Shown: positions 7,529-57,107 of the stretch, piece by piece
Numbering within the stretch: the first letter of the stretch is position 1
Layout: the number at the start of each line of letters is the position of its first letter
NCBI GenBank assembly: GCA_910574935.1
Contig: CAJTCU010000002.1
Coordinates: 62,001 to 126,000 of the forward strand
DNA: 64,000 nucleotides
Direction: 5' to 3'
DNA from: Oscillospiraceae bacterium
GTDB taxonomy: Bacteria; Bacillota; Clostridia; Oscillospirales; Acutalibacteraceae
Translations under genes and position numbers: made by a program
The notes under the pieces: model-generated
What the model saw: only the letters and a program-made list of their open reading frames with translations
Database searches by the model: none
Told to the model about the DNA's origin: nothing

Positions 7529-8032
7529 TCAAACCGCCTCAGCTTTTGGTAAGCACTTTCCTGAAAGCCTGGGGTAAGGGCTTTTTCTCTTAAAAAATTC
7601 GTATACCGAGCAGCCCTTATCTACCAGGGTGACCACTGCCCCTTCTCGATACCGGGGCGGACGCAAGGTCAGCGGGAACATATGGGTTCGAATGATGTCT
7701 GCCTCTATGCCAGTAAGCTCCAGCTCTTTGGCCGCATTTTGCCAAGCAATTTCCGGGTGGCGGGCCCAGTGGCCCTTACGGGTAGGGTCGCCGTCTTGGG
7801 CGTCATAAAAAAAGTAATCGTGAAGCAGCGCCCCAATGGCCATATCCCTCATATGAAAGCGCACCCCTAAAAAGGAGGCCAGCCGGCAGCTGTAATAGGC
7901 CACGGCCACACTATGCAGCAGCCGGCAGGTATTGCCGTGCTGCGGATATTCAGCCATACTAACCAGGTTAGATGCTTCAATTAATTCGTTATAACAATTC
8001 CAAAACGCCTCGGCGTCCCAATATCTTGACAT
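7529..8032 (-). CDS. HD-domain protein, putative phosphohydrolase
   Basis: A 167-residue HD-fold protein. LLHSVAVAYYS supplies the first metal-binding His, ALLHDYFFYD the HD pair, and the later residues HPEIAW and TLVDKG complete the set seen in small clostridial HD hydrolases. The family hydrolyses phosphate esters of nucleotides or related metabolites, but the substrate is unknown. The start at 8032 (MSRYWDAEAF) has AAGGGAG upstream. It has its own promoter (8193-8221) and terminator (7485-7515), so it is monocistronic. It lies directly downstream, on the same strand, of the large non-coding RNA but behind that RNA's terminator. Confidence 0.8.
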   Translation of the reverse strand: MSRYWDAEAFWNCYNELIEASNLVSMAEYPQHGNTCRLLHSVAVAYYSCRLASFLGVRFHMRDMAIGALLHDYFFYDAQDGDPTRKGHWARHPEIAWQNAAKELELTGIEADIIRTHMFPLTLRPPRYREGAVVTLVDKGCSVYEFFKRKSPYPRLSGKCLPKAEAV

Positions 8033-8192: not shown

Positions 8193-8221
8193 ATTATAAT
8201 CTAAAAACACCACTTATGCAA
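8193..8221 (-). promoter_or_regulatory. Promoter of the HD-domain gene
   Basis: Minus-strand TTGCAT (8216-8221), 17-base spacer, perfect TATAAT (8193-8198). The leader to the start codon is ~155 nt. Confidence 0.7.
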
Positions 8222-8293
8222 GGTCTATTATCTGGCAATTTATATGATAAACCAAGACAGAAAATGACAGATAAACTTTAAGAAAAAACGCGA

Positions 8294-8326
8294 AAAGGCC
8301 TCCAAGTATTGCCCTGGAGGCCTTTA
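8294..8326 (-). terminator. Terminator of the large ncRNA
   Basis: AAAGGCCTCCA/TGGAGGCCTTT-type stem with a 10-base loop. The minus strand continues TTTTCGCGTTTTTT. The structure is nearly symmetric and could act in both directions. Confidence 0.8.
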
Positions 8327-8945
8327 TTATGCAAAAAATCCAGCTTCTTCAGCTTACTGCGAAAATATTCTACAGCCCATGGGCGCAAAACTCCTTTAAC
8401 TTGGCACATCAGTACTCTTTCGCTGCCCCGCTGTAATCATTTCATTTCGGTAAGCTTTTAGAAGCTTCTAAACTAGCGGCGCCAAAACAGGTCCGTGCCA
8501 AATTGACTTGCTGTCACTCTATACTTTTGCAGCATAGTGACCGCCTTTCGTAATTTAGGATCATTCGCATTTATATCTATTTTGCGGACCATGAGTCCGC
8601 AAGCTCGTGCTGTGTTTCACTTAAGTCCATTGGACTCACCCGCCTTTCCGTCTTTGTTTTTTAGTTCCGCCTCTCTTGTAAGCGCTGGTCTTGGGCCTCC
8701 CTTTCACGCAATCCTGCGTACCGTATCTTTACGGCTGTCTTCTCAAGACTACCCAATTTTTACAACTTCCACTGGGTGTATACGCAAAAGCGCTTACTTC
8801 CACTTAAATTACCACTCCGCCGTTTTCGCTCCGGCCTTTAGGAAACAATTCTTTTTAAGCTTCCCAATTCTACCGTCTACTTCCGGCTTTAGCGGAACAA
8901 TCTATTAATTACTTAGACTCTCACAAGCTCGTTCTCTCTTGTGAT
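8294..8945 (-). ncRNA. Large (~650 nt) structured non-coding RNA, possibly ROOL-class
   Basis: A perfect TTGACA-17-TATAAT promoter (8952-8980) points into a 650-nt stretch with no convincing reading frame, which ends at a strong terminator (8294-8326). Reading the minus strand, hairpins are dense. A 5' stem pairs 8938-8943 with 8922-8927. A long-range 8-bp helix pairs GTAAGCGC (8790-8797) with GCGCTTAC (8678-8685). It encloses a junction of at least four helices: ACCCA/TGGGT at 8751-8777, and stems at 8737-8749, 8721-8734 and 8706-8719. Further stems lie at 8625-8637, 8582-8602, 8513-8541 and 8457-8472. Size, promoter, ornate structure and host type fit large bacterial RNAs such as ROOL; OLE and GOLLD fit less well. 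I cannot confirm the class without a covariance search. A 123-codon frame on the plus strand is a by-product. Confidence 0.75.
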
Positions 8946-8951
8946 GGTTGT

Positions 8952-8980
8952 ATTATAAACCATCGCGCGGCGTTTGTCAA
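8952..8980 (-). promoter_or_regulatory. Consensus promoter of the large ncRNA
   Basis: Minus-strand TTGACA (8975-8980), exactly 17 bases, TATAAT (8952-8957). The predicted start is A8945. It is one of the two or three best sigma-A promoters in the window, implying strong constitutive expression. Confidence 0.85.
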
Positions 8981-9101
8981 TAGGTTTTTTAAAAAAATCT
9001 GAAAAACTTTCAGCAATTTCCTATAGTTCCAGGTTTTACTCCCCTACCGTCTGTTTTTCCGCGATTTTTCGGGCAAAAATAGAAAATGACTGAACACCCC
9101 C

Positions 9102-9130: not shown

Positions 9131-9179
9131 AAGACCATGTGAGCGGGCCGGTTGCCCGCAGCCGAAAGGAGCGAGCAAT

Positions 9180-9479
9180 TTGGACAATGGTTATGAAGCT
9201 GACCTGATCACCCTGATCGATGACGAGGGGCAGGAGCATGAATTTGAAATTATTGATGAGCTGGAAAACGACGAGGGGCATTTTATGGCTCTGGTTCCCA
9301 CTCGTCCCGATCCAGATGACCTTGCCTCCGATGCGGAGACCTATTATATTTTTGAGGTAATTGAGGAGGACGGCGAGGAACAGCTGCAAGAAGTGGAGGA
9401 TGACGCTCTGCTGGACCGGCTGGCAGAACTTTTTGAAACCCGGTTTAATGAAGCCTTTTACGAAGGCGGCGAGGAATAA
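9180..9479 (+). CDS. DUF1292 family acidic protein
   Basis: A small (99-residue) strongly acidic cytoplasmic protein of the DUF1292 family, widespread in Bacillota and of unknown function. It opens LDNGYEADLITLIDDEGQEH, and the YYIFEVIEEDGEEQLQEVED block is typical. The start is the TTG at 9180: GAAAGGAG lies eight bases upstream, and upstream frame is promoter DNA. DUF1292 genes often sit near yrzL/ruvX-type genes, but here the gene is alone. It is followed, before any terminator, by a structured non-coding stretch ending at 9749, so both may be on one transcript. Confidence 0.85.
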   Translation: MDNGYEADLITLIDDEGQEHEFEIIDELENDEGHFMALVPTRPDPDDLASDAETYYIFEVIEEDGEEQLQEVEDDALLDRLAELFETRFNEAFYEGGEE

Positions 9480-9552
9480 GTATACGCACTGAAATACATT
9501 CTCTGTCTGCCCGATACGCGGACTGTGCACATATAACCCTACACTCAAATTA

Positions 9553-9705
9553 TTGGGAGCCCGTCTCCGCCTGCGGATTGCAGACCTCCCGGCCCAGCAC
9601 GACTGTGGTTGGACGAAGGGAGCGTGAACCATGTGGGAGGGCACCCACCTGTTCCTCTTGTAGGCAGGTTATTGAGATGCACATTACGGTCGGGCGGGCT
9701 ACCAT
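9553..9705 (+). ncRNA. Structured RNA candidate, 6S-like rod
   Basis: Between the DUF1292 stop and the terminator at 9715-9749 lies ~150 nt that folds as a long rod. The closing stem AGCCCGTC (9558-9565) pairs with GGCGGGCT (9693-9700), extended outward by TGG/CCA. A CTGC/GCAG mini-hairpin lies on the 5' side (9571-9583). The upper helix is CCTCCC (9585-9590) with GGGAGG (9635-9640), then TGGTT/AACCA near the tip. An ACCTG/CAGGT hairpin (9648-9668) lies on the 3' side. Closing stem, central bubble with flanking hairpins and terminal helix recall 6S RNA. No clear promoter is seen (only a weak TATAAC near 9533). SRP RNA is unlikely because the GGAAGCAGC domain IV signature is absent. Confidence 0.4.
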
Positions 9706-54831: not shown

Positions 54832-54907
54832 GGGCTCGTGGCTCAGCTGGGAGAGCGCCGCGTTCGCAACGCGGAGGTCGAGGGTTCGATCCCCTTCGGG
54901 TCCACCA
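54832..54907 (+). tRNA. tRNA-Ala (anticodon CGC)
   Basis: 76 nt with all arms: acceptor GGGCTCG/CGGGTCC including the G3-U70 wobble that identifies alanine tRNA, D arm GCTCAGCTGGGAGAGC, anticodon arm CCGCG-TTCGCAA-CGCGG giving CGC, T arm GAGGGTTCGATCCCCTT, and an encoded 3' ACCA. Followed two bases later by a terminator and a serine recombinase gene. Confidence 0.95.
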
Positions 54908-56869: not shown

Positions 56870-57107
56870 GCTTATACAGACGGCGGTCAGCAGCCGCTCC
56901 ATAGTTTTTTCATCCTCCCCCCATGCTTGTGGCGGGGCGCCCTGTCCCGTGACGGACAGCCGGCGCAAGTATCATTATCCCCCTGGTGCGGATTATGGCC
57001 TGTCACTTTGCTGAATGTGGCCTGCCGTCTGGCTTTATCGCTCCACAAAGGTATCATCGCGCGCCAAGCTGCATGGCTCCCCGCACAGGGAATGTATCTG
57101 TTTTGCC
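56870..57107. other. Probable element remnant, no gene called
   Basis: GC-rich 240 bp without a supported frame. A Cys-containing minus-strand translation (NDTCAGCPSRDRAPRHK) hints at a decayed zinc-ribbon coding end, but it has no start. Confidence 0.3.

Follow-up and report, generated by a model that had tools for sequence, protein, structure and literature searches.

On the minus strand of the window, the whole 64,000-nucleotide stretch analysed here, lies a standalone structured RNA gene of a class that is absent from Rfam, and the conserved family to which it belongs is almost certainly real. Its relatives carry strong ribosome sites that are often followed by an in-frame stop within a few codons. 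From the sequence comparisons below, we consider it about 40% probable that this is a ribosome-docking RNA acting in trans, which would dock initiating ribosomes at minimal open reading frames (ORFs). We regard the architecture of the RNA as new; the mechanism is a proposal. The features in and around the gene are as follows.

9501-9704, plus strand: 6S RNA, adjoining the DUF1292 gene (Rfam RF00013, 51.8 bits)
9174-9479, plus strand: DUF1292 protein (PF06949), divergent neighbour (Pfam)
8952-8980, minus strand: promoter TTGACA-17-TATAAT, 12/12 (sequence scan)
8290-8945, minus strand: predicted RNA transcript (bounds taken from promoter and terminator; fold and homologues)
8921-8944, minus strand: 5' hairpin TCACAAG / CTTGTGA, kept in most genus RNAs
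8877-8887, minus strand: conserved GCCGGAAGTAG, with 8 successive invariant columns in 11 aligned genus RNAs
8815-8829, minus strand: conserved GCGAAAACGGCGGAG, with 8 successive invariant columns (GAAAACGG) in 11 genus RNAs
8678-8797, minus strand: multi-helix junction with closing helix 8797-8790 / 8685-8678 (minimum-energy fold; lineage-specific stretch)
8632-8649, minus strand: first ribosome site, extended Shine-Dalgarno GGAAAGGCGGGTGAGTCC, pairing with the 16S 3' end at -17.5 kcal/mol
8577-8630, minus strand: short ORF MDLSETQHELADSWSAK*, 17 aa, start codon 8630-8628 (start triplet in 18 genus loci)
8584-8600, minus strand: hairpin at the ORF end; its strand GGACTCAT (8598-8591) can pair with the start region GUGAGUCC (RNAalifold)
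8473-8535, minus strand: ORF MLQKYRVTASQFGTDLFWRR* behind GAAAGGCGG (sequence only)
8403-8499, minus strand: 3' domain, helices 8499-8494/8408-8403 and 8490-8485/8420-8415 (covariation, 15 genus sequences)
8354-8397, minus strand: second ribosome site AAAGGAG (8397-8391) and ORF MGCRIFSQ* (8380-8354) (sequence, genus comparison)
8294-8325, minus strand: intrinsic terminator, a 13-pair hairpin and then T-rich sequence (sequence)
8193-8221, minus strand: promoter-like site of the HD gene, TTGCAT-17-TATAAT, 9/12 (sequence)
7529-8032, minus strand: downstream HD-domain gene (HD match slightly under the Pfam cutoff)

The original prediction of a consensus promoter, a strong terminator and a densely folded minus strand was borne out. 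TTGACA-17-TATAAT is present in full at 8980-8952, and a 2-kb scan in which four promoter-like sites were found (2.9 expected) gave no other 12/12 match. At the opposite end, the hairpin at 8325-8294 is followed by a T-rich tail. The minus strand folds at -214.4 kcal/mol, compared with -173.0 (sd 6.8) in 20 shuffles, none of which equalled it (z -6.1); the plus strand is likewise structured (z -5.2). The 8-bp long-range helix that had been described pairs exactly (GTAAGCGC/GCGCTTAC) and is also part of the minimum-energy fold, and the stretch that contains it (8797-8790/8685-8678) is absent from most relatives. Covariation, which had been suggested as a check, was found in other parts of the RNA than this helix. 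The claim that the transcript holds no credible protein stood for long ORFs, as the region's only ORF of at least 100 aa (123 aa, 8537-8908, plus strand) had no Pfam match at E 0.001; it had overlooked the short ORF behind the extended Shine-Dalgarno (SD) element.

A standalone structured RNA gene, possibly of a new class, had also been proposed, and this gained support from the negative result with Rfam 15 at gathering. ROOL, named at the time as the best candidate, was not supported: Rfam 15 gave no ROOL match in the window or in homologous loci, and the covariance models of OLE, GOLLD, RNase P and tmRNA gave no match to any of these. At gathering, the whole window yielded tRNA, 6S RNA and pemK only. 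When positions 8200-9100 were searched at E up to 10, eight matches were returned, all far below gathering and none to ROOL, OLE, GOLLD, RNase P or tmRNA. Likewise, no family was found at the RNA in 20 homologous loci scanned at gathering (the window genome's own and 19 others), and ARAGORN detected no tmRNA in the window. The sole tRNA of the window is at 54832, and the pemK RNA (RF02913, 44.7 bits) lies on the minus strand at 56899-56978.

Comparison by blastn with 50,697 phage records and with plasmids gave no match at E 1e-5, and a mobile-element origin was rejected on these grounds. Nine viral-contig pattern matches listed (L257-L265) were also set aside, because no promoter scoring 10/12 or more lay within 900 bases of them. 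No description of the RNA was found in searches of the open-licence literature. As presented in PMC12286853, a ROOL RNA of 659 nt has been described, GOLLD is reported to pull down ribosomes, OLE may sequester RpsU, and ROOL and GOLLD are carried by phages, often close to tRNA islands. Set beside that account, the RNA resembles ROOL, GOLLD and OLE in its similar size, dense structure and standalone nature. It differs from all three in having no Rfam match and in being sited near 6S RNA and DUF1292, and from ROOL and GOLLD in having no phage match and no tRNA in the window except the one at 54832. A homo-oligomeric RNA particle is a further mark of ROOL, GOLLD and OLE. The RNA described here is like ModT (raiA motif) RNA in being a conserved, structured, standalone RNA in Clostridia; the ModT family, however, was not among the Rfam matches here.

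Homologues were sought within the genus, Neglectibacter. Comparison by blastn with 198 relatives gave matches in 20 genomes, the window's own included; one match (L019, genome G177) was dropped, as it resembles by eye an mcsA/mcsB coding region. A covariance model of the core (R1) recovered the RNA in 21 of 29 genus genomes. Six of the eight genomes missed by R1 were inspected beside their DUF1292 gene, and the remaining two (G003 and G015), without a DUF1292 match, fell outside this inspection. Beside DUF1292, a divergent RNA with a 12/12 promoter was present in G006 and G028, in G024 the promoter and the GCCGGAAGTAG block are followed by the end of the contig, which truncates the RNA, and no RNA was found in G004, G008 or G016. 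The total was 23 of 29 Neglectibacter genomes. One of these RNAs (G014) is 99.7% identical to that of the window. Upstream of the core, the best promoter with 17-nt spacing scored 12/12 in 21 of 23 genus loci and 11/12 in the other two; because it is so nearly invariant, strong transcription of the RNA is suggested. The distance from the beginning of the promoter to the first start codon ranged from 122 to 721 nt across the 23 loci.

The arms of the 5' hairpin differ among the 21 genus RNAs listed (GAGAC/GUCUC, GAAGAU/AUCUUC, CAGGA/UCCUG and CUGUAAAC/GUUUACAG), and the hairpin itself, judged by eye, remains in most of them. For the 3' domain, 15 of 17 prepared genus loci were aligned, with two shorter RNAs (L011 and L020) left out. 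Its helices, which were predicted from the same alignment as was used in the test, are paired in 90.6% of cells compared with 80.2% after shuffling, and the covariation score was 0.498 versus 0.294, with none of 500 shuffles as high. Both sides have changed in 7 of 12 pairs, and when the helices were slid out of register only 30.6-49.4% of cells were paired.

Judged by sequence models, the RNA occurs in divergent form across Oscillospirales. Beside DUF1292 genes in other genera, 21 of 28 loci and then 11 of 40 more that were fetched were judged to have the first ribosome site, with loci ordered by DUF1292 similarity and up to 3 mismatches allowed in the site. A sequence-only model of the first site (R2) at E 0.01 matched 85 of 295 genomes of the order, some of which match by construction as members of the model. 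At the same threshold it matched 22 of 245 genomes of the class, 6 of the 22 being within the order, and 21 of 249 genomes of the phylum, one being the window's own. At E 1e-4 the counts were 39 of 295 for the order and 7 of 245 for the class, with three of the seven outside the order, and in the phylum sample only the window's own genome remained. Inspection of 30 order loci showed a promoter scoring 10/12 or better in the 450 nt upstream in 24 of them, one of which opens a 41-codon ORF. The phylum and class searches supplied 26 further R2 loci, and 14 were rejected as resembling ordinary gene starts, with ORFs of at least 60 codons.

Three loci of another phylum family, f122 (L321, L322 and L333), have a promoter and then GAAGGAGGGGAGUCC-N-AUG-GGC-NNN-stop, a three-codon ORF, and in two of the three a terminator-like hairpin follows the mini-ORF. 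Start codons of several other families lie 52-61 nt from where the promoter begins, and so near the 5' end. By eye, the distant family f55 (L296, L297 and L300) has short RNAs of roughly 250-300 nt; their first mini-ORFs read MTK*, VAH* (started by GTG) and MAK*, and short ORFs near the terminator read MEDIPPK*, MENNPPE* and MEGNPPK*.

The surroundings of the gene are partly shared. Other genera of the family likewise have DUF1292 as a divergent neighbour, and the order 6S-DUF1292-RNA was seen again among them; a 6S RNA was present in 8 of the 20 homologous loci scanned with Rfam, one of them the window genome's own. Universal adjacency to DUF1292 was not supported, with matches in 2 of 39 rows. 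That count is low by design, for three reasons: loci already known from the DUF1292 search had been taken out as duplicates, only three DUF1292 queries were run over at most 2500 bases upstream, and three rows (L239 twice, L252) are loci dropped elsewhere. On the other side, a motif of the HD protein follows the RNA, within the available stretch, in 17 of 23 genus loci.

The best conserved segment of the RNA in the genus loci is GAAAGGCGGGYGAGUCC-N-AUG, an extended SD element of the form GAAAGG(CG)GGUGAGUCC-N-AUG. The segment is complementary to the 3' end of 16S rRNA, and the 16S tail was confirmed in the genome of the window. In 79 homologous loci, pairing between 24-mers of the first site and the 16S 3' tail averaged -16.0 kcal/mol, compared with -9.7 when shuffled. 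Since a start codon and a promoter were conditions of entry to this set, it is no evidence for either; first sites less than 30 or more than 420 nt away from the promoter were excluded as well. Three loci (L239, L252 and L164, ordinary genes or Streptococcus) were removed before terminators, ORFs and pairings were counted, and a terminator was present in 69 of 79 homologous loci. The first site is strong and not extraordinary, since 7 of 50 long ORFs in the window pair with 16S rRNA at least as strongly at their best start.

In 18 aligned genus loci (from blastn), the start triplet at the first site was ATG in 16, TTG in one and GTG in one, and length changes near the ORF start are whole codons in these loci. 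An opening resembling M[DG]xxE[PST]Q[HQ] is found again in the peptides of different genera. Conservation does not extend to the whole peptide, because species differ in the frame in which they read the hairpin that encodes its second half.

That hairpin may also close the start. RNAalifold gave a helix of 12 bp in 18 genus sequences, with double changes in 2 of the 12 pairs. The predicted anti-start helix shows compensatory change across genera. Over 51 non-redundant loci of 69, from many genera, the start-closing pairing score was 17.16 when each locus kept its own partner; swapping partners lowered it to 15.94 (16.78 at most in 300 swaps), and shuffling them to 12.28. At four of the 51 first sites, the start-closing run had no more than 4 pairs. 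By eye, a change in the base that separates UCC from AUG is matched in its partner in many loci (A-U, G-C, U-A), with exceptions in a few, such as L080, L093 and L096.

Further ribosome sites lie downstream. The second site of the window pairs with 16S rRNA at -12.0 kcal/mol and opens an ORF of 8 codons, which is not minimal. At the same position, other genus members have three-codon ORFs (MGC* three times, MDC* and MGS*) or the two-codon ORF MY* (L007, L018, L041, L042 and L069). The ORF at 8535-8473 was rejected as a conserved feature, its frame being lost in relatives by eye.

Across relatives, 40 of 60 downstream CCNATG sites preceded by an SD have a stop within four codons, whereas for other SD-preceded ATGs in the same RNAs, taken as a control, this is so in 13 of 77 (p 2.7e-9); the SD rule and the four-codon cut-off were fixed after the pattern had been noticed. 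The 60 sites left out 19 Agathobaculum-type loci, which were defined by a peptide-start rule and include two (L213 and L253) that are probably not Agathobaculum relatives. In these 19 loci an early stop occurs at only 3 of 11 downstream sites. With similar sites removed and the 19 loci restored, the counts were 38 of 59 versus 26 of 125 controls (p 1.7e-8). Outside the RNAs, 5 of 20 SD-preceded CCNATG sites had a stop within four codons. The early stops depend on reading frame (40, 8 and 12 of 60 in frames 0, +1 and +2), and the 40 minimal ORFs end in TAA (19), TGA (14) or TAG (7). At least one minimal downstream ORF was present in 32 of 52 loci tested. If a minigene is taken as an SD, a start, few codons and a stop, the relatives show this arrangement at those 40 sites and at the 22 hand-picked first sites described below, whereas the ORFs of the window, with 17 and 8 codons, do not. 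Agathobaculum-type loci such as L246 also have a conserved segment, GCCGATGGGCATACTGATGAGT, about 340 nt past the first start codon.

Minimal ORFs occur at the first site itself in other families, as AUG-Gly-stop or a start, two codons and a stop; in 22 loci hand-picked for a minimal first ORF, the stops were TAA (11), TAG (7) and TGA (4). When 36 downstream motif copies were collected irrespective of start codon, 20 had ATG, 5 GTG, 6 AAG and 5 AAA, and four of the five GTG copies belong to one divergent group. The idea that every copy starts an ORF was rejected, as 11 of the 36 have no start codon. Copies with AAG or AAA could dock 30S subunits and not initiate.

The same element is found at protein genes. 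In L140, L143, L161, L172 and L238 (four labelled Agathobaculum and one Eubacteriales) an HD-domain gene has this element as its translation start, as does a DUF1292-like gene in L179, L191, L207 and L252, and the element is also carried by many unrelated genes. By eye, a mini-ORF with this element stands directly before protein genes in L225, L285, L270 and L306; the gene in L306 looks Hsp20-type-like. To judge from their placement, the sites in these four loci favour a cis role there.

In the docking mechanism that we propose, a strongly transcribed RNA, as its promoter would imply, presents one to several strong ribosome landing sites. Initiating ribosomes would dock there, synthesise a peptide two to about 30 residues long and release at once. 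The peptide itself would be of little consequence, and the RNA would hold or cycle ribosomes rather than produce protein. The strand near the end of the first ORF would pair with the first start region and close the site, and a ribosome reading through that strand would displace it and reopen the site. Acting in trans, such an RNA would be ribosome-docking or ribosome-sensing. Docking is the likely step, and its purpose is a guess. More specifically, and tentatively, the RNA might belong to a widespread bacterial class whose conserved working units are landing sites for ribosomes with stop signals built in. It might park or count initiating ribosomes and have a self-closing first start, as a translational counterpart of 6S RNA, whose gene is one gene away; this we regard as possible and somewhat doubtful. 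Lambda bar is a known minigene. Relatives of the RNA resemble lambda bar and axe-txe in having a strong SD whose AUG is followed by a stop after one or a few codons. The axe-txe leader contains two-codon ORFs (PMC8708949), and in that account its minigene acts in cis in an mRNA leader, whereas here one or several stand in a standalone, terminated RNA.

The ribosome sites might instead merely protect the RNA. The STAB-SD of Bacillus is a 5' stabiliser that has a long complement to the 16S 3' end and needs no long ORF, and the RNA studied here likewise has a long complement without a long ORF. In an arrangement of this type, with a strong 5' SD occupied by a 30S subunit or an initiating ribosome, 5' exonucleases would be blocked, the minimal ORFs would stop readthrough, and the structured remainder would do the real work of the RNA. 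This would suit the start codons near the 5' end in several other families, the occurrence of the element before protein genes, and the non-AUG motif copies, which would still dock 30S subunits; a review describes protection by a strong SD without translation (PMC7509114). The sites differ from STAB-SD in being internal, repeated in relatives and beside start codons, and the first can be shut by a strand that pairs with it. A 5' stabiliser would need neither a first start as far from the promoter as in the genus nor further copies hundreds of nt downstream, and anti-start pairing would counteract it. We consider protection rather unlikely to be the explanation. A sponge for a translational regulator, by analogy with CsrB, is distinctly unlikely. 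CsrB titrates CsrA by imitating the ribosome sites of target mRNAs, and the RNA is similar in that several motif copies resembling ribosome sites occur on one structured RNA in relatives. The element starts genes of the HD-domain (five loci) and DUF1292-like (four loci) families, both of which flank the RNA in the window, and copies without a start codon fit binding better than translation. However, many unrelated genes have the element, and the recurrence of the HD and DUF1292 families was counted without a background. The motif, GGUGAGUCC-N-AUG, often with an early in-frame stop, is also unlike the GGA loop of CsrB-type RNAs, and a protein-binding site would leave unexplained the in-frame stops within four codons, which use all three stop codons.

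That the RNA is a messenger for a functional micropeptide, encoded by the first ORF and followed by a long structured 3' end, is quite improbable. The recurrent M[DG]xxE[PST]Q[HQ]-like start, the varied start codons and the whole-codon indels within the genus speak for such a peptide; its second half, however, is read in different frames of one hairpin among species, the first ORF is merely Met-Gly in other families, and the conserved RNA is mostly outside the ORF. Very improbable is a cis-regulatory leader of the downstream gene, which the frequent HD-protein motif after the genus RNAs and the position of some distant members before protein genes might suggest. In the window, a strong terminator and a separate promoter-like site precede the HD gene; the next gene appears by eye to be different in other genera, and terminators are the rule in the wider set of loci.

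The docking of ribosomes in trans at minimal ORFs is the reading that we prefer. The genus Neglectibacter includes a named species, Neglectibacter timonensis SN17, so the RNA is directly testable. A structured RNA with a near-perfect promoter occurs across a group of gut bacteria and is missing from Rfam 15. If its sites do hold ribosomes at minimal ORFs, it would represent a mode of RNA control over translation capacity that we know from no other system.
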